Below are positions 15,145 through 23,690 of a DNA stretch of 32,955 bases, one piece after another. A model generated the notes under the pieces. The model did no database searches and was not told the DNA's origin. It worked only from the letters and a program-made list of their open reading frames with translations. Each line of letters starts with the position of its first letter. The first letter of the stretch is position 1. This stretch comes from Bacteroidota bacterium (lineage in GTDB: Bacteria > Bacteroidota > Bacteroidia > Bacteroidales > Paludibacteraceae). A program made the translations under genes and the position numbers. The stretch is taken from positions 1 to 32,955 of the forward strand of contig JAUZOM010000024.1 in assembly GCA_030706465.1 (NCBI GenBank), read 5' to 3'.

Positions 15145-15984
15145 TTAGTATTCCGCCGGCATTTTCAGTACTTCTTCGTACGTAAACACAGGACCGTCTT
15201 TGCAAACATAGGTTTTACCCACAGTGCAATGGCCGCATTTGCCTACCCCACATTTCATGCGATTTTCAAGTGTTGTATAGATATTGGCATTATCAAAGCC
15301 GTTTTTACTTAAGATCGGCATTCCCATTTTGATCAGGATTGGAGGTCCGGCAACAATAGCTACCGCATTATCGCTTTTAGGCGGATTCTGTTCCAGGACA
15401 GTCGGTACAAATCCGACTAATCCTTTCCATTCCGGAGTTTCGCCGCCCGGATCTACCGTTACATAAAGCTTTACGTCACTCCGGCTCGACCATTCCTCCA
15501 GTTCCTCTTTATACACCAGATCATTCACTGAGCGTGCCCCATAATAGATGGTTATATCGCCGAACTTCTCCCGTTGATCCAACAGGTTCCAGATCACACA
15601 ACGCAAGGGCGGCAACGCAATACCCCCGGTAACAAAAACAATGTTTTTACCATACCATTCTTCGATTGGAAAGGTATTCCCAAATGGACCTCGCAGTCCG
15701 ATGATGTCATTCAGTTCGCAGTTTGCCAATGCTTTGGTAACACGGCCGGTACTTCGGAATGTACATTCCAGGTAGCCTTCGCGGGTAGGAGAGGAGGCTA
15801 TGCAAAAGGTGCTTTCACCTTCGCCAAAAACACCGTATTCGGCAAATTGCCCGGCTCTGAATGTGAATTGTTCGGCATCTTTTTCATCGACAAATTCCAA
15901 CCTGTATGTCTGAACCAGCGGAGCTTCTTCAGTGATACTCGCTATGCGCATTTTATACGGGATATATTGATTTTTTGGTTCCAT
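15145..15984 (-). CDS. flxA: FlxA: NAD(H)- and FAD-binding oxidoreductase subunit
   Basis: This subunit should oxidise NADH and pass electrons to the Fe-S subunits of the FlxABCD-HdrABC complex. From the ATG at 15984 it has 279 residues; an in-frame TTG two codons earlier (15990) is less likely. The ferredoxin-NADP reductase fold is clear: an FAD domain (about 8-105, with the FAD-contact region STFCIASSP), an NAD domain (about 115-235, with VTGGIALPPL and VAGPPILIKM), and a C-terminal [2Fe-2S] site with Cys245, 250, 253 and 261 (CGVGKCGHC...YVC), as in dihydroorotate dehydrogenase B and sulfite reductase AsrB. The FlxB/C/D and HdrA/B/C genes upstream decide the name. It is the last gene of the operon, before a terminator. 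Confidence 0.88.
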   Translation of the reverse strand: MEPKNQYIPYKMRIASITEEAPLVQTYRLEFVDEKDAEQFTFRAGQFAEYGVFGEGESTFCIASSPTREGYLECTFRSTGRVTKALANCELNDIIGLRGPFGNTFPIEEWYGKNIVFVTGGIALPPLRCVIWNLLDQREKFGDITIYYGARSVNDLVYKEELEEWSSRSDVKLYVTVDPGGETPEWKGLVGFVPTVLEQNPPKSDNAVAIVAGPPILIKMGMPILSKNGFDNANIYTTLENRMKCGVGKCGHCTVGKTYVCKDGPVFTYEEVLKMPAEY

Positions 15985-16084
15985 ATTCAACTAATTAATC
16001 ATTTATAGTTCACAATTCACAATTGCGAATTATTGGATACTTTTAAATTCTACTTAATCTCATTATTTGCAGTTAGCCTCTCTA

Positions 16085-16107
16085 AGTCCCCTATTGGGAA
16101 TTTAGGG
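16085..16107. repeat. CCCC/GGG hairpin in the flxB-flxA gap
   Basis: A short AGTCCCCT-atTGGGA core followed by TTTAGGG resembles the palindrome at 17126-17144 in the next gap of the same operon. The 127-base gap between flxB and flxA also holds a cacaattcacaattg motif near 16015. These look like dispersed spacer repeats rather than signals of a separate promoter. Confidence 0.35.
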
Positions 16108-16111
16108 TTAT

Positions 16112-17116
16112 TCATTGTGTCACACTTAAGATATTTTCAAAGATATTTAGATGGGCAGGACAAACCCGGATACAACGTCCGCAACCAACACAACTCACGA
16201 TGCCGAGGTTTTCAACCGAGTATTGGAATTTGTGCATGAGTCGTTGACGGCGACGCTGGGTTTGGTTCGTCTTTGGATTATGTCCTGAAGCATGCTTGGT
16301 GAACTGCCCGAATCCGCAAGCATCCCAACACCGCAAGCGTTGACCTTTATTCTGTGTTCCTTCGTCCTGGATATCGAAACAGGTACAGGTAGGACAGGAG
16401 AAAGCGCAAGCTCCACAACCAAAGCAACCCATCGATTCATTTTTCCATTCCGCACTGTCATAAGCTGTTTTGATACGTTCCTTGATTTCTGTTAACGAGA
16501 ATTTAGTGTCTATTTTAGCCAGGTATTTCTCTTTACTTCTCTCTTCATTTACTGAGAATAAGGAAGCAGATAGATCAATTGCAGCTTTTCCTTTTTCAGT
16601 TATGACTTCCACGTATACATCTTCACCCATTGTAGTGAGCAATAGATCGCTTCCTTCCGTGCTACCGGGGGTCAGGCCCACCGAGGTGCAGAAGCAGGCA
16701 TCATCAGCTTTGGCACAACTTATAGCAATCAGGGTGGTCTTAGCCTTGCGTGCTGCATAATAGACATCCGGATTTTCTTTCAAAAAGAATTCAGTCATAT
16801 AGTTGAAAGCTGATCCATCACACGGACGAAGCCCCCAGACTATTGTTTCCGGGATATCGGTGATGGAATCTTTTATGTCAATGCCATCATCTGTCTTATT
16901 AAACGAAAATAATACTTCCACCTTCGGAAAAACCACTGACTTCGCCGAGAATCCGGTTTGAATGTAATCGGTTGCCACCTGGCTATACGATTGTACCCGT
17001 TCAAAGAATACCTTTCCGCTCTTTTTCATCACAGGAGCTATTACCACTTTGCCGGACTTAATCAGTTGGTCAAAGAATGCAGGTAGCTGGGATAGTTTTA
17101 TATTTTTTATTTCCAT
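16112..17116 (-). CDS. flxB: FlxB: 4Fe-4S electron-transfer subunit
   Basis: This 334-residue protein resembles the AsrA/hydrogenase-beta-type electron-transfer proteins. The N-terminal domain (about 1-225) contains VWGLRPCDGSA (93-103) and a Cys-containing loop CAKADDACFCTS (134-145). The C-terminal part carries two [4Fe-4S] ferredoxin-type motifs: Cys231, 234, 237 and 241 (CFGCGACAFSC) and Cys309, 312, 315 and 319 (CVGCGRCIRVC). It should relay electrons from FlxA. Although it resembles AsrA, no AsrC sulfite reductase is present, and the HdrABC context makes FlxB the better reading. It starts at an ATG 29 bases after flxC ends. Confidence 0.86.
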   Translation of the reverse strand: MEIKNIKLSQLPAFFDQLIKSGKVVIAPVMKKSGKVFFERVQSYSQVATDYIQTGFSAKSVVFPKVEVLFSFNKTDDGIDIKDSITDIPETIVWGLRPCDGSAFNYMTEFFLKENPDVYYAARKAKTTLIAISCAKADDACFCTSVGLTPGSTEGSDLLLTTMGEDVYVEVITEKGKAAIDLSASLFSVNEERSKEKYLAKIDTKFSLTEIKERIKTAYDSAEWKNESMGCFGCGACAFSCPTCTCFDIQDEGTQNKGQRLRCWDACGFGQFTKHASGHNPKTNQTQRRRQRLMHKFQYSVENLGIVSCVGCGRCIRVCPAHLNIFENILSVTQ

Positions 17117-17125
17117 ATTCTTATT

Positions 17126-17144
17126 CCCCTTTAGGGGTTAGGGG
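17126..17144. repeat. CCCCTTTAGGGG palindrome in the flxC-flxB gap
   Basis: The 12-base palindrome CCCCTTTAGGGG (17126-17137) is followed by TTAGGGG and fills nearly the whole 29-base gap between flxC and flxB. A related copy occurs at 16085-16107. In an mRNA it could form a small hairpin between the two genes, but a regulatory effect is only a guess. Confidence 0.45.
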
Positions 17145-17145
17145 T

Positions 17146-17949
17146 CTATTTAATGAATTGTTCTTTATCTTCCGGTTTAAAGGTATTCAGGGCATAACCG
17201 CTATTACAGGAGAATCCTGTTTTGGAGCCAAATTCCTTTTCAATATCCAGATTCATTTGAGCGGTGAGTAAATGAACCGGAATTCCAACAGGACATATCC
17301 GTCCGCATTCTCCGCAGTTAATGCAGCGTCCGGCCAGATGCATAGCCCGCATGGTGTGCCATTCCAGGTTGCCGGTAGTTTCGGAAGAAACTTTGATCCA
17401 TTGCGGTTGATTACATTCCACTGTGCAGGAAGAACAATAACACATTGGGCAAACTGCCCGGCAAGCATAACATTTTACACATGCTGCGAATTGTTCGGAC
17501 CAGTATTGCCAGCGTTCGGCACGGGTCATGCTGTTCAATTGTTCGAGCAGTTTTTTATCTTCTTCTGTATATTCCGGAAAATTAGCCTGAACGTATTCCT
17601 CTACTTTCTCCATATTATCAAAAACCAACACTTCATTTTGAGCATTGATGGTAATGACCGTTTTTTCAATATCACTGAGTTGATTCTCGGAAGTAAGCTG
17701 CACCAGAGAGCGTAAAGTGGCTATATTAGCCAGTATGCCTATCTTTTTTGCCTGCTTTATTTCTGCCTTATGAAGATAAACCGACAGGTTTCCTTTGCAT
17801 TCGGGTGTATAAATCAGTTGTTCTACCTGAGTGGCGTGGTCGATAAAACAAGGAACTGCCAGTTTATTGATGGCATTTTTATACCCGATCATCAGGCTGA
17901 TTGTTCCGTTTTCAAACAATTCGGCAACTTTATTCTGTAATGGCGTCAT
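17146..17949 (-). CDS. flxC: FlxC: 4Fe-4S electron-transfer subunit
   Basis: This 267-residue iron-sulfur protein has two ferredoxin-type sites in the C-terminal half: Cys157, 160, 163 and 167 (CVKCYACRAVC) and Cys209, 212, 215 and 219 (CINCGECGRIC), plus an extra group of cysteines at 170, 172, 175 and 179 that could complete a further cluster. The N-terminal half (about 1-150) has no recognised motif. Its start overlaps the end of flxD by 20 bases, implying translational coupling and equal output. It should join FlxA/FlxB to the MvhD-like subunit. Confidence 0.86.
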   Translation of the reverse strand: MTPLQNKVAELFENGTISLMIGYKNAINKLAVPCFIDHATQVEQLIYTPECKGNLSVYLHKAEIKQAKKIGILANIATLRSLVQLTSENQLSDIEKTVITINAQNEVLVFDNMEKVEEYVQANFPEYTEEDKKLLEQLNSMTRAERWQYWSEQFAACVKCYACRAVCPMCYCSSCTVECNQPQWIKVSSETTGNLEWHTMRAMHLAGRCINCGECGRICPVGIPVHLLTAQMNLDIEKEFGSKTGFSCNSGYALNTFKPEDKEQFIK

Positions 17950-18394
17950 GGCTTATTTTTTCAAAGGTTGAACAATCCAGTTTTTTGAAATCAGTAAAGG
18001 CACCTTTCTCACGTATTCTCTGCGTGGTTTCATCCACCAGTCCGGCCCATTTGGCACCTTCGGCAGCCGATACCCACGAAAACGTAATCCGGTCGGTATC
18101 GAATCCCATGAAATCAAGCAACGAGCGGAATACTATCCAACGGCGGCGGGCATGGAAATTACCTGAAGTATAGTGGCAGTCATTGGGGTGGCACCCTGAA
18201 ACGATAATACCATCGGCTCCGTTCTCAAATGCCTTCATGAGTAACATAAAGTCAATACGTCCCGTGCACGGAAAGCGGATAATGCTTACATTGGTTGCAT
18301 ACTTGGTGCGGCTTGTTCCAGCCAGGTCGGCACCGGCATAGGTACACCAGTTGCAGACAAAAGCCACTATTTTTGGTTCAAATTGTTCGGACAT
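17930..18394 (-). CDS. flxD: FlxD: MvhD-like [2Fe-2S] linker subunit
   Basis: This protein links the NADH-oxidising subunits to HdrA, as MvhD does for hydrogenase in methanogens. From the ATG at 18394 it has 154 residues; the longer frame begins with a TTG at 18433 and adds 13 residues before the MvhD-like start (MSEQFEPKIVAF), so the ATG is preferred. The MvhD cysteines are all present: Cys14 and 17 in CNWCTYAGAD, Cys43 in PCTGR, and Cys67 and 73 in GCHPNDCHY. Its 3' end overlaps flxC. A REP-like repeat fills the 246-base gap upstream towards hdrA. Confidence 0.9.
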   Translation of the reverse strand: MSEQFEPKIVAFVCNWCTYAGADLAGTSRTKYATNVSIIRFPCTGRIDFMLLMKAFENGADGIIVSGCHPNDCHYTSGNFHARRRWIVFRSLLDFMGFDTDRITFSWVSAAEGAKWAGLVDETTQRIREKGAFTDFKKLDCSTFEKISHDAITE

Positions 18395-18480
18395 ATTTTG
18401 TGTTTTAAAAATGTCTCCGGTCTTTAGTCGCAAGACACCAGACGTTGGATAATTTGTGTTTTACTTGTATTATTCAGTTG

Positions 18481-18559
18481 AACCCACTTCGGGGTTTTGT
18501 TTGTACTTGTTTCTTTCCGCAGGTTTCAGCGGGGTTATTCACCTTAAAGCCTCCGGGCT
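18481..18559. repeat. Three-hairpin REP-like element between hdrA and flxD
   Basis: Three short inverted repeats follow each other: AACCC-acttcg-GGGTT (18481-18496), CCGC-aggtttca-GCGG (18517-18532) and AGCC-tccg-GGCT (18548-18559). On the minus strand they would be transcribed after hdrA and before flxD. This modular hairpin order is typical of dispersed REP-like elements of Bacteroidetes. No T-run follows, so it is more likely an mRNA stability or attenuation element, or just an insertion, than a terminator. Confidence 0.5.
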
Positions 18560-18640
18560 CTTCCTAAAATTAAGCTAATTCCATTTCAATATAAAATAAA
18601 ATTTCCTTCTGATTGTCAACTGCTAACTGTCAACTGTCAA

Positions 18641-20641
18641 TTATGAATTAAGAAGTGCCATGACTTCCGACAGCATCTGGTCATTTGAGAAGCCTTGTAG
18701 GTCGATCGATTTGTTCCGGCACATGGCCACACAGGTCCCGCAGCCCTGGCAAAGCCCTGCGTTTACCTTCACAGCCACTTTGATCAGGTTACCGGTCCGG
18801 TCCTTCATCTCTTCACGCTCAATAGCATGATACGGGCAAACTTCCATGCAAAGCATGCAACCGGTACAGCTGGTAAAGTTTGGAGGAGCCTGACGGTTTA
18901 CTACCGCTACAATCGGTTCGCGGGTCATTTCATTACTCGAAAATAATCCAATGGCTTTACTGGCCGATGCTGAAGCTTGGGATACTGTTTCGGGAATATC
19001 TTTGGCTCCCTGGCATGCTCCGGCCAGCATGATTCCGGCGGTATTTGTTTCTACCGGCCTGAGTTTCGGATGGGCTTCGGCAAAGAAATGATGCTTGTTG
19101 TAGCTGATATGCATTCGTTGGGCAACCGTTTCAGCATCTTGGTTAGCTATCACGGCTGTAGCCAGCACCACCATGTCGGCTTCTATTTCAACCGGGTCAC
19201 CGTTCATTAACGTGTCAACCCCTTTCACGATCAGCTTTCCATTCTTTTCGTAGATGCGCGAAACGCGTCCGCGGATGTAATGGACATCGTCTTCTTCGAT
19301 TGCACGGCGAACAAATTCATCATAATCTTTTCCGGCAGCCCGAATATCCATGTAGAATACATAAGCATCCCCGTCATGTTTTTTGTGTTTATACAGCATC
19401 GCATGTTTTGCCGTGTACATACAACATATTTTAGAGCAATATTCTATGCCTTTCGCTTTATCGCGTGATCCGGCGCAAGCTACAAATACTATTTTTTCGG
19501 GGATCTTACCATCTGATGGACGGCGGATTTCACCGGCAGTAGGACCGGAGGCCGAAGCCAGTCGCTCAAACATCATACCGTCAATCACATCTTTAAACTG
19601 GCCATATCCATATTCAGGGAAGAAGTCGGCATGTTTTAAATCAAAGCCTGTTGCCGTAATGATGGCTCCCACTTTTACATCAAGAAATTCATCCTGTACT
19701 TCATAGTCAATGGCTCCGGCAGGACAGATTTTCTGACAAACTCCGCATTTGCCTTTCTGAAAATAATTGCAATGATCCCGGTCTATAACAGGTTTATTTG
19801 GAACAGCTTGTGGAAAAGGGGAATAGATAGCGGTGCGGAATCCCATTCCTTCATTGAATTCATCCGGAATCTTTTTGGATGGACATTTTTGCCAACAGGT
19901 ACCGCAGCCTGTACATTTGCTATGGTCCACGCTTTTTGCTTTCATTCTGATGGTTACCTCAAAATTGCCGACAAATCCCGTGACTTTTTCGACTTCAGCG
20001 TAGGTATATAACGTAATATTCGGATGTTGTGCTACTTCCACCATGCGCGGTGTCAGGATACATTGCGAACAGTCGAGTGTTGGGAATGTCTCGGATAGTT
20101 GCGACATGTGTCCTCCAATGGATGGCTTTTTTTCCACCATGATTACGCTGTGTCCGGCATTGGCAATGTCCAGTGCCGCCTGTATTCCGGCAATTCCACC
20201 TCCAATCACAAGAGCTGTTTTGGTTATCGGAACTTTAATAGGGGTGAGGGCCGTATTTTTCTTTACTTTTTCCACCATGGTACGGACGATGTCCAATGCC
20301 TTTTGGGTGGTAGCATCCGATTTGGGGTGTACCCACGATACCTGCTCACGGATATTGGCCATTTCGCAGAAATACGGATTGATTCCCGCCTTTTCCGCGG
20401 CCTTGCGGAATGTCCCTTCATGCATCCGGGGGGAACAGGATGCCACTACAATCCCCGTCAGCTTATGTTCTTTGATGGCATCAATAATCAGGGTTTGGCC
20501 CGGATCTGAACACATATATTTGTAATCGACACTGTAAGCAACACCCGAAAGTTTTCCGGCTTTCTCGGCTACTTTAGCCACATCAACAGTGGCAGAAATG
20601 TTCTCGCCGCAGTGGCAGATAAAAACTCCAATTCTTGCCAT
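18641..20641 (-). CDS. hdrA: HdrA: FAD and Fe-S flavin-based bifurcation subunit
   Basis: HdrA holds the flavin that splits electron pairs between ferredoxin and the disulfide branch. The 666 residues show the whole family plan. An N-terminal domain carries Cys9, Cys11 and Cys44 (CHCGENI and YMCSDPG). The FAD Rossmann motif GGGIAG lies at 147-152, with Cys191/194. An inserted ferredoxin has Cys243, 246, 249 and 253 and Cys291, 299, 302 and 306. The flavin domain continues to about 570. A C-terminal ferredoxin has Cys592, 595, 598 and 602 and Cys631, 634, 637 and 641. No selenocysteine or fused MvhD domain is seen. It begins 3 bases after hdrB ends, so hdrB and hdrA are tightly coupled. Confidence 0.94.
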   Translation of the reverse strand: MARIGVFICHCGENISATVDVAKVAEKAGKLSGVAYSVDYKYMCSDPGQTLIIDAIKEHKLTGIVVASCSPRMHEGTFRKAAEKAGINPYFCEMANIREQVSWVHPKSDATTQKALDIVRTMVEKVKKNTALTPIKVPITKTALVIGGGIAGIQAALDIANAGHSVIMVEKKPSIGGHMSQLSETFPTLDCSQCILTPRMVEVAQHPNITLYTYAEVEKVTGFVGNFEVTIRMKAKSVDHSKCTGCGTCWQKCPSKKIPDEFNEGMGFRTAIYSPFPQAVPNKPVIDRDHCNYFQKGKCGVCQKICPAGAIDYEVQDEFLDVKVGAIITATGFDLKHADFFPEYGYGQFKDVIDGMMFERLASASGPTAGEIRRPSDGKIPEKIVFVACAGSRDKAKGIEYCSKICCMYTAKHAMLYKHKKHDGDAYVFYMDIRAAGKDYDEFVRRAIEEDDVHYIRGRVSRIYEKNGKLIVKGVDTLMNGDPVEIEADMVVLATAVIANQDAETVAQRMHISYNKHHFFAEAHPKLRPVETNTAGIMLAGACQGAKDIPETVSQASASASKAIGLFSSNEMTREPIVAVVNRQAPPNFTSCTGCMLCMEVCPYHAIEREEMKDRTGNLIKVAVKVNAGLCQGCGTCVAMCRNKSIDLQGFSNDQMLSEVMALLNS

Positions 20642-20644
20642 ATA

Positions 20645-21517
20645 CTAAGCCTCCTTTTTAACGATACAGGTTACTACTTTGTCAGTCGGCACGTAATGCT
20701 TGTTCAAACCAAGCTGGTCCGCTGGGATACCCATGCTGAGCCCCAATGCCTGGGTGATAAATAAAACGGGCAGATTGATCTCTTTATTCAACTGTTTTTT
20801 TATCTCCGGGCGTCGCATGTCCAGATTTACGTGACACATCGGGCAAGCCACAATGATGGATTCTGCCCCCCGGTCGGCTGCATCTTCAATAATCTTTCCC
20901 GAAAGTTTTGCTACAATGTCGGTACGTGACATGGTAAAACCGGCACCGCAGCATTCGGTTTTAAATGCCCAATCAATAGGCGTTGCACCGGCTTTTACCA
21001 TAACCTTATCCATTTCCATGGGATTTTCAATTTGTTCCAGGGCAGCTGTCTCTTTTGGGCGGGAATATAAACAACCGTAGTAGCAAGCAGTTTTTTGATT
21101 CAGTTTGTTTACAATATGTCCGTCGGCAACCGGAAAAATATATTTTTGCAGGAATTCAAATACGGTCAGAATCTTTATATCGGCCTCCAACGTCAGGTCA
21201 ATATAGCGCTCTATTTTCTTTCGGGTGGCAACATTGTTGCTGATCTCCTGTTTTGTGCCGGCTATCCGGCTGTAACAGGCAGCACAGGGAATTACAACTT
21301 CTTCAAATCCTTGCTTTTCGGCCAATGCCAGGGTACGTGCCGGAAGTGCCAATGCCAGGTCATGATTCAGGTTATGCGCTGCCGAAGCACCACAGCAACT
21401 CCAGTCCTTGATCTCTTCGAGCATAATGCCGCATTTTTCAGCCACTGCAAACAACGAATCGCTGTATTCTTTACTCGATCCTTCGAGCGAGCAACCGGGA
21501 TAAAAACCTATTCTCAT
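20645..21517 (-). CDS. hdrB: HdrB: disulfide-reducing noncubane 4Fe-4S subunit
   Basis: HdrB carries the two noncubane [4Fe-4S] clusters that cleave disulfides in heterodisulfide reductases. Both CCG motifs are complete in these 290 residues: Cys9, 41, 42, 78 and 81 (PGC, SCCGA, PCAACY) and Cys149, 189, 190, 225 and 228 (YGC, ECCGAG, CPMCH). The active site therefore appears intact. In methanogens the substrate is CoM-S-S-CoB; in sulfate reducers with Flx-Hdr the proposed partner is DsrC. Neither partner is encoded here, so the physiological disulfide is unknown. It sits between hdrC and hdrA. Confidence 0.94.
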   Translation of the reverse strand: MRIGFYPGCSLEGSSKEYSDSLFAVAEKCGIMLEEIKDWSCCGASAAHNLNHDLALALPARTLALAEKQGFEEVVIPCAACYSRIAGTKQEISNNVATRKKIERYIDLTLEADIKILTVFEFLQKYIFPVADGHIVNKLNQKTACYYGCLYSRPKETAALEQIENPMEMDKVMVKAGATPIDWAFKTECCGAGFTMSRTDIVAKLSGKIIEDAADRGAESIIVACPMCHVNLDMRRPEIKKQLNKEINLPVLFITQALGLSMGIPADQLGLNKHYVPTDKVVTCIVKKEA

Positions 21518-21631
21518 AAATTTATGTCTAATGTCTAAAGACGAATGTCAAAAGTCTTGTTGACTGTTTGTAATGATGTGAAGCTAATAACAATCAATAA
21601 CGTGAAACAAATAACGGCGAAGCCAATAATA

Positions 21632-22204
21632 TTACTCTTTCGTTCCTTCGCTGATCCGCTTAAAAATCTTCGCTATCTCTTTCGTATTTTGTACCTGATG
21701 CGGGAAGATGGCAAGTTTTCCTTTGGCCATCATCGACGGAGCCAGCAATACATCTTGCATCAGGTTGAGTGATCTGAGTTTATAATCGATCGTTAATCCG
21801 ACTTCATGGAGTTTTCCATTCAACTTGATTGAATCTAAAAAGGCCTTGTGGAAACTCAGGATATCTTTTGCTTTCGGGTTGACTTTGTGTTGACGGATGG
21901 ATTCCTGACGGAGGAAATCCATGACCTGCGAAAGTTTGACTTCTTGCGGACAACGTGAATAACAGGTATCGCAGGCCAGGCAAAGCCAAATAGAAAGGGA
22001 ACTTAAGATCTTGTCTTCGTAGCCCGGAAGTTCAAGCTGTAGCATACGGAGAATCTGATTGGGCCTGACGTCCATCTCTTCGTTGAGCGGGCAACCGGCA
22101 GTGCATTTTCCACATTGGTAACAATGCGAAACAATCACACCGGTAGCTTCTTCCATCTGCGATTTTAAGGTGCCGGCGGGATGTTGGGGAATTATTTCGT
22201 GCAC
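21632..22204 (-). CDS. hdrC: HdrC: 4Fe-4S subunit
   Basis: This 190-residue protein transfers electrons between HdrA and HdrB. Two ferredoxin motifs are visible: Cys28, 31, 34 and 38 (CYQCGKCTAGC) and Cys75, 78, 81 and 85 (CLACDTCYSRC), followed by a helical C-terminal domain. The predicted initiator is GTG at 22204. The next in-frame ATG (residue 17) lies close to the first cluster and would shorten the family N-terminus, and a stop lies upstream, so GTG is kept. It is the first gene of the operon, with a possible promoter about 314 bases upstream. Confidence 0.9.
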   Translation of the reverse strand: MHEIIPQHPAGTLKSQMEEATGVIVSHCYQCGKCTAGCPLNEEMDVRPNQILRMLQLELPGYEDKILSSLSIWLCLACDTCYSRCPQEVKLSQVMDFLRQESIRQHKVNPKAKDILSFHKAFLDSIKLNGKLHEVGLTIDYKLRSLNLMQDVLLAPSMMAKGKLAIFPHQVQNTKEIAKIFKRISEGTKE

Positions 22205-23261: not shown

Positions 23262-23690
23262 ATGAAAAAAACATATGTATTACTGTCATTAGCCCTGGCT
23301 GTTGTTTTGAGTGCAGTTGCTCTGAATAGTAAGAACCATTTCAAAGATGGCGTTTATAAAGGGGAGTCACGGTCGGTGTACACAAACGAACCGTTTTGGG
23401 GGCAGGTAACATTGGAAATTAAGAACGACAATGTAACCCTAATCACCTTCCGGATTGTTGACAAGGAAAAAAATGAAGTGTTTGGGCCTGATTATGAAAA
23501 GCACTTTAAAGATAGCTCGGTTTATGCCGAACAATGTCGGAATGAAGTAAAAGGGATAAAAGCTTATACAAAAGCATTTATAAAAAACAAGAGCCTGGAG
23601 CCAGTGGATGCCATAACCGGTGCTACCTGGTCATATAACCTGTTTAAAGAGGCGTTGAATGATGCATTGGGAAAAGCATTAAATAAATAA
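23262..23690 (+). CDS. Exported FMN-binding domain protein
   Basis: This 142-residue protein has an N-terminal signal sequence (about 1-21) followed by one FMN-binding domain of the RnfG/NqrC type. The key motif DAITGATWS at 116-124 contains the (S/D/T)GAT element in which Thr122 is the expected attachment point for a phosphoester-linked FMN added by ApbE. It therefore probably carries electrons outside the cytoplasmic membrane. Only this single domain is present, unlike RnfG, which has a longer anchor-linked form. It faces away from the flx-hdr operon across 1 kb and may or may not belong to that electron pathway. Confidence 0.85.
   Translation: MKKTYVLLSLALAVVLSAVALNSKNHFKDGVYKGESRSVYTNEPFWGQVTLEIKNDNVTLITFRIVDKEKNEVFGPDYEKHFKDSSVYAEQCRNEVKGIKAYTKAFIKNKSLEPVDAITGATWSYNLFKEALNDALGKALNK

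Follow-up and report, generated by a model that had tools for sequence, protein, structure and literature searches.

The stretch of DNA analyzed in this work, referred to below as the window, comprises positions 1 to 32,955 (32,955 nucleotides) of contig JAUZOM010000024.1 in GenBank assembly GCA_030706465.1, assigned to a Bacteroidota bacterium of the family Paludibacteraceae (order Bacteroidales). Among its open reading frames (ORFs) there is a flx-hdr cluster, i.e., seven consecutive and co-directional minus-strand genes (22204-15145) in the order hdrCBA-flxDCBA. An earlier note, made from the sequence alone, had described all seven FlxABCD-HdrABC subunits here as co-directional genes, and this description held, coordinates included, except that the start of flxD was moved to 18394 (MSEQ), which is preferred over a TTG codon at 18433. 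Sequence comparisons confirmed the locus as a canonical FlxABCD-HdrABC cluster with seven intact subunits (Table 1); the cluster is genuine and undamaged, an unremarkable representative of an enzyme family already described. The title of Ramos 2015 reportedly calls Flx-Hdr widespread in anaerobic bacteria. The hdrCBA-flxDCBA order recurs in relatives, and the arrangement seen in the window is thus not due to chance.

Table 1. Genes of the flx-hdr cluster in the window, with predicted products (aa, amino acids) and their family or structure matches
Gene	Coordinates	Strand	Predicted product	Matches
hdrC	21632-22204	-	190 aa, GTG start; two [4Fe-4S] motifs	Fer4 families; CoB_CoM_SS_C 74.8 bits (cut-off 160)
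hdrB	20645-21517	-	CCG protein, two noncubane [4Fe-4S] sites	PF02754 CCG 79.9 bits; 5ODC chain B, E 9.8e-34
hdrA	18641-20641	-	FAD and Fe-S subunit	HdrA2 model 769.7 bits (cut-off 1100); 5ODC chain A, E 1.4e-197
flxD	17930-18394	-	MvhD/FlpD-type subunit	PF02662 163 bits
flxC	17146-17949	-		generic dicluster Fe-S families only
flxB	16112-17116	-	Fe-S subunit resembling sulfhydrogenase beta/AsrA	Fer4_22 107 bits; 9NEZ chain B, E 4.7e-37
flxA	15145-15990	-	FAD/NAD(P)H-binding [2Fe-2S] subunit	NAD_binding_1 and DHODB_Fe-S_bind; 9NEZ chain C, E 1.1e-57

Both CCG noncubane sites reported in the earlier note are intact: each of ten HdrB cysteines (Cys 9/41/42/78/81 and 149/189/190/225/228) is paired in the alignment with one of 5ODC chain B. 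We take these residues to be cluster ligands, and HdrB is presumed to be the disulfide/thiol site. HdrA could be aligned over its full length to 5ODC chain A, with Lys412 opposite Lys409 of that chain, presumably an important residue and a mark of bifurcating-type HdrA; HdrA is presumed to be the bifurcation site. HdrC and FlxD are predicted to act, respectively, as the electron wire to HdrB and as the link from the input module to HdrA. Pyrococcus furiosus sulfhydrogenase 1 (9NEZ) has counterparts of both FlxA (its gamma subunit) and FlxB (its beta subunit). FlxA, in which the FAD/NAD domain and the [2Fe-2S] domain are both present, is the predicted point of electron entry from NAD(P)H. In FlxC, three groups of cysteines (157/160/163/167, 170/172/175, and 209/212/215/219) are invariant across 42 sequences. 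Its AlphaFold2 model (predicted local distance difference test score 85.6, predicted template modeling score 0.83) was best matched by 7BKB chain E (E 7.2e-9, 14% identity, template modeling (TM) score by query 0.70, root-mean-square deviation (rmsd) 7.5), followed by 8RVU chain E (E 3.1e-8, 12% identity, TM score by query 0.65, rmsd 10.1), which is named formate dehydrogenase beta subunit. The likeness of the model to the formate-dehydrogenase-beta-type chain found in solved Hdr complexes suggests that FlxC may be an Fe-S wire by which electrons pass from the input module to FlxD-HdrA.

Among the matches listed (for HdrA, the best 25 of 87), none of the seven proteins reached a curated NCBIfam cut-off, and a Flx-Hdr model was absent among the NCBIfam matches listed for them. 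The Rfam scan of the window gave no match. The GC content of the operon (0.448) is like that of purL (0.446) and prfA (0.448), while the remaining window has 0.401, and composition is therefore no clear sign of transfer. Intergenic spacing is tight, save for flxD-hdrA (246 bases), flxB-flxA (121) and hdrC-hdrB (114). The flxD-hdrA gap (18395-18640) contains TGACAGTT-like repeats and an AACCC...GGGTT hairpin, whose word was found in none of the 277 fetched loci besides two overlapping the same place; the gap folds slightly better than its shuffles (z -1.73, with 11 of 200 shuffles equally good). Divergent from hdrC, at a distance of about 1 kb, lies a gene for an FMN_bind protein (23262-23690, plus strand) whose start resembles a signal peptide and which carries an AITGAT motif, presumably of the kind flavinylated by ApbE.

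The HdrA and HdrB proteins are homologous over their length to those of methanogen HdrABC (5ODC, 7BKB, 8RVU), and the HdrC- and MvhD-type subunits are shared by family; the input differs, being an NAD(P)H module in the window and a hydrogenase or formate dehydrogenase in methanogens. To our knowledge, CoM-S-S-CoB is not to be expected as a substrate in the window's organism. Likeness was also found to FlxABCD-HdrABC of Desulfovibrio vulgaris Hildenborough, which has the same seven genes and for which NADH input and ferredoxin output were proposed (Ramos 2015, via citing papers), and to the Bilophila operon, in which the hdrCBA-flxDCBA order is the same (PMC12125255). The window differs from D. 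vulgaris in that dsrC and adh families are missing among the proteins scanned, and its genome gave no DsrC match. In agreement with the earlier note, the 24 window proteins scanned against Pfam and/or NCBIfam, drawn from 46 ORFs of at least 90 aa, many of them overlapping, comprise no DsrC, hydrogenase, alcohol dehydrogenase or MetF family member.

The complex, which that note cited from sulfate reducers, has already been published from outside sulfate reduction in Pseudoclostridium thermosuccinogenes, where it lies in a succinate operon and a link to fumarate reductase was proposed (PMC7282089). It is likewise used outside sulfate reduction in tubeworm symbionts, where it is linked to tfrAB (PMC6315080). 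Unlike these fumarate-reductase-linked systems, the window's order yielded no TfrB (thiol:fumarate reductase, NF004898) over the cut-off in any of 80 genomes, the window's genome included. Flox-Hdr was also listed for Krumholtzibacteriota and Desulfobacterota (PMC7382037).

With an E-value threshold of 1e-15, FlxC was found in 31 of 295 genomes of the order sample and in 3 of 295 of the class sample (the window's genome being counted in both), and in 0 of 3 genomes of the same family. The scan of named genomes gave at least 588 matching stretches, at least 584 of them relatives, of which the best 80 were kept. By their record titles (some titles of metagenome-assembled genomes being doubtful), these include Bacteroides cellulosilyticus, B. 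oleiciplenus, Dysgonomonas, Alistipes sp., Segatella paludivivens, Candidatus Azobacteroides, Ignavibacteria, Chlorobiaceae and Phycisphaerales. Split clusters occur as well: hdrA lies elsewhere in genome G481, flxC, hdrA and flxA are on three contigs in G349, and flxA lies elsewhere in G275, a genome of 1.2 Mb that keeps all seven genes, with an intact flxA at G275:C5:211652 (59% identity). Two Candidatus Azobacteroides-like clusters (L032 and L144) were seen without flxA.

When 96 clusters were placed in a tree, the copy in the window grouped with those of Bacteroidetes CG23 (support 0.998) and Ignavibacteria AS10 (1.0) rather than within the clade to which most Bacteroidales copies belong, but the node joining its group to the rest had a support of 0.195. 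The copies of G515, G300, G390, G488 and G572 also fell outside the main Bacteroidales clade. This placement makes it likely that Flx-Hdr was transferred into the window's lineage. The same grouping, together with a bin contamination of 3% and the three same-family genomes without FlxC, could also be explained by a misbinned contig, the locus then belonging to another organism. We regard this as improbable, as transfer accounts for the tree equally well and the mean tetranucleotide correlation to ten other contigs of the genome (0.58 for the left flank, 0.48 for the operon and 0.47 for the right flank) falls within or above the range of 0.29-0.54 shown by those contigs themselves; the test is, however, a weak one, with G316 (0.53) and B. 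cellulosilyticus (0.54) scoring as high.

As regards other neighbors of flx-hdr, ExbB/ExbD/TonB/PstS-like/TPR genes were seen in 5 of 31 loci (L034, L054, L058, L059, and L060), and a dihydroorotate-dehydrogenase-like gene in 3 of 31 and 6 of 80 loci, at least two of them being the same contigs; for both kinds, only representatives were named by family search.

The co-occurrence of Flx-Hdr with Rnf was analyzed in a set of 80 genomes, 32 with FlxC (31 from the order sample and G170 from the class sample) and 48 without. RnfC (TIGR01945, E 1e-60) was present in 8 of the 32 Flx-positive and in 43 of the 48 Flx-negative genomes (Fisher 5.8e-9), and 75 of the 80 had Flx, Rnf or both. Pagel tests, for which a RpoB/RpoC tree of 78 of the 80 genomes was used (G335 and G338 gave no RpoB, and seven genomes had fewer than 1800 residues), favored the dependent over the independent model of Flx and Rnf evolution, with a likelihood ratio (LR) of 40.2 (p 4e-8), or 36.4 when six genomes less than 90% complete were set as unknown. 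In simulated nulls, run with fewer optimizer starts (observed LRs 38.9 for Rnf and 28.0 for NuoD), the observed Flx-Rnf value was reached in 0 of 41 cases with Flx simulated and Rnf as observed, and in 0 of 39 with Rnf simulated. Flx-Hdr and Rnf thus tend to exclude each other in this order, and the occurrence of Flx-Hdr mostly where Rnf is missing suggests a similar job. Rnf (ferredoxin:NAD+ oxidoreductase) likewise joins the ferredoxin and NAD pools; it differs in being a membrane ion pump of other genes, and tends not to share a genome with Flx-Hdr, yet both are present in the window's genome. Rnf-less members of the order have been noticed before, the enzyme replacing Rnf being treated as a gap for which six alternatives were weighed (PMC10542786); in the main text of that paper the words 'Flx' and 'heterodisulfide' occur 0 times.

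Another correlate of Flx-Hdr is complex I without NuoEFG. Among the matches listed, a NuoD type that is 369-402 residues long and gives a split match was found in 25 of 32 Flx-positive and 9 of 48 Flx-negative genomes (Fisher 1.6e-7, LR 30.6, 0 of 39 simulated nulls), and a NuoD match stronger than 1e-40 in 29 of 29 Rnf-less and 27 of 51 Rnf-positive genomes. Moreover, flx-hdr has nuo genes as direct neighbors in 6 of 31 loci (contig ends truncate several of the 31) and in 6 of the 80 named loci; as two of these cases are, by length, the same contigs, ten genomes are involved. The nuo genes lie downstream of flxA (G418, G360, G535, and G515), divergent from hdrC in four close relatives in the cluster tree (L123, with only nuoAB shown, L125, L129, and L141), or between hdrA and flxD (G384 and G484). 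In G384, a single contig carries an 18-gene run, hdrCBA-nuoABCDHIJKLMN-flxDCBA, in which 38 bases separate the nuoD and nuoH matches, leaving no room for nuoEFG there; in G484, where the halves are at the ends of two contigs, the nuo genes are apparently nested in the same way. A NuoN-like match at L098 was not counted as nuo, since no other Nuo subunit was called there.

Several points weigh against a general replacement of Rnf by Flx-Hdr feeding complex I. The 48 Flx-negative genomes are not a random sample (G295-G348 without FlxC, minus G303, G305 and G307, which are less than 90% complete, plus G440 and G533), Flx-positive genomes were scored on FlxC alone, the fitted Pagel rates lie at their bounds, and the NuoD types were distinguished by their length and pattern of matching rather than by a tree. 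Within-family contrasts are few: f113 and f124 favor exclusion, f92 opposes it, and Rnf is unchanged within f1, f75, f85, f101 and f112. Besides the window's genome, seven Flx-positive genomes retain Rnf, and the nuo link is found neither in the window nor in most loci seen.

The window's own genome is itself such an exception. It has Rnf (contig C37), and a search of it turned up neither a NuoD nor a NuoH such as complex I has, the best matches (E 9.5e-28 and 3.3e-35, respectively) both coming from a membrane complex on contig C292 (G000:C292, L170). This complex resembles group-4 hydrogenases and has a large subunit without CxxC nickel-binding motifs, as judged by eye. It is a possible ferredoxin-linked ion pump. 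G349 likewise has Rnf and no Nuo of the complex I kind. With Rnf present and no such NuoD, the replacement model fits the pattern of the order and not this genome in particular, in which Flx-Hdr is probably an added enzyme acquired by transfer. The window carries the Flx-Hdr module without its complex I.

Taking these points together, our preferred explanation, to which we assign a probability of roughly 0.6, is that canonical Flx-Hdr joins the NADH and ferredoxin pools in this order in place of Rnf, the ferredoxin then feeding complex I. That even the 1.2-Mb genome G275 has retained the full set of seven genes also speaks for it. From the gene content, motifs and distribution described above, we infer direction, substrates, electron route and acceptor as follows. 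NADH would deliver a hydride to FlxA, from which electrons would pass via FlxB, FlxC and FlxD to the HdrA flavin. There, one electron of each pair would go to ferredoxin, and HdrC would carry the other to HdrB, at whose two noncubane clusters a disulfide or similar acceptor would be reduced. In Rnf-less genomes, reduced ferredoxin would most likely be passed to NuoEFG-less complex I and on to the menaquinone chain, while in the window's genome it would be used by Rnf or the group-4-like membrane complex. The complex might instead work mainly in reverse, oxidizing ferredoxin and a thiol to form NADH (confurcation), as Rnf does in fermentation. The Rnf-like exclusion pattern is compatible with that direction, and reverse operation was described for D. 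vulgaris in pyruvate fermentation (PMC10084766). We nevertheless consider it rather unlikely, as it requires a continuous source of thiol and the linkage to nuo is in keeping with ferredoxin production for complex I; in P. thermosuccinogenes, furthermore, the transcripts of Flx-Hdr and Rnf behave oppositely, which was read there as electron transfer from NADH to ferredoxin by Flx-Hdr (PMC7282089).

The search for the high-potential acceptor was less productive. A genome-wide search for dsrC, proposed in the earlier note, gave no PF04358 match in the window's genome, which is 94% complete; among 14 control genomes, E. coli gave a match. The statement that DsrC is not to be expected in Bacteroidetes did not hold for the order, as DsrC-family genes were found in 26 of the 80 genomes, with no association with Flx (13 of 32 Flx-positive vs. 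13 of 48 Flx-negative genomes; Fisher 0.23, Pagel LR 7.2, p 0.13). Four of the 14 DsrC-family proteins from the 13 Flx-positive genomes, present in 4 of these genomes, have the two-cysteine tail of the DsrC type, and the other ten have no such tail and one conserved cysteine near the C-terminus. DsrC was reported to interact with the Flx-Hdr complex (PMC10504309); as neither a match in the window's genome nor an association across the 80 genomes was found, it was rejected as the partner here. TfrB was rejected too. A Qmo-like cluster was also discarded, since a membrane HdrC-like query found matches of at least 60% identity in 6 of 32 Flx-positive and 7 of 48 Flx-negative genomes, i.e., no association. 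The window's genome does contain a QmoABC-like cluster (G000:C277, L075 66-6232), near a DsrE/DsrF/DrsH-like gene, which encodes an FlpD-like protein, two HdrA-like proteins, a 114-aa protein without Pfam match, and a 349-aa HdrC-like protein, much of which is hydrophobic over a long stretch.

A DsrC/TusE-like partner might lie in the missing part of the assembly, given its 337 contigs and completeness and the 13 of 32 Flx-positive genomes that have the family. This is very unlikely in our view, because DsrC matches are missing from the three same-family genomes (99-100% complete, though these are without FlxC) and from 19 of the 32 Flx-positive ones. The earlier note saw the main novelty in another disulfide or thiol substrate of HdrB, possibly a so far undescribed acceptor used by fermentative Bacteroidetes. 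That DsrC and TfrB were not found here, that most Flx-positive genomes (19 of 32) are without a DsrC-family match and that the HdrB cysteines are intact all speak for an undescribed disulfide/thiol protein; no positive candidate took the place of the known ones, and among DsrC, the Qmo-like cluster and TfrB no disulfide-partner gene tracks Flx-Hdr. Such a protein, which would be compatible with our preferred explanation, is as the main novelty doubtful, albeit the least doubtful of the alternatives considered, and the earlier interpretation as a whole is partly supported.

The exclusion of Rnf and the linkage to nuo in relatives, both of them correlations, are a stronger and more testable result than the question of the acceptor. 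In the open literature, in which papers naming FlxABCD together with Bacteroidetes were partly covered, we found no published link of Flx-Hdr to Rnf replacement or to nuo in Bacteroidetes. The whole cluster is present in Bacteroides cellulosilyticus DSM 14838 and Segatella paludivivens DSM 17968, named species in which gene removal may therefore be feasible. In the case of Bacteroides fragilis, complex I is without NuoEFG and its donor was described as unknown (PMC7002350). In some Bacteroidales, Flx-Hdr might be the input module of such a complex I, acting via ferredoxin or by direct contact, which would amount to an NADH-driven, electron-bifurcating complex I; we put this forward tentatively, as an idea more likely wrong than right. 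If it were true, the donor sought for that complex I would be identified, and with it an alternative to Rnf that had been overlooked in propionate-forming Bacteroidales. One gene cluster could thus address two published gaps, the donor of NuoEFG-less complex I (PMC7002350) and the ferredoxin/NADH balance of Rnf-less members of the order (PMC10542786).

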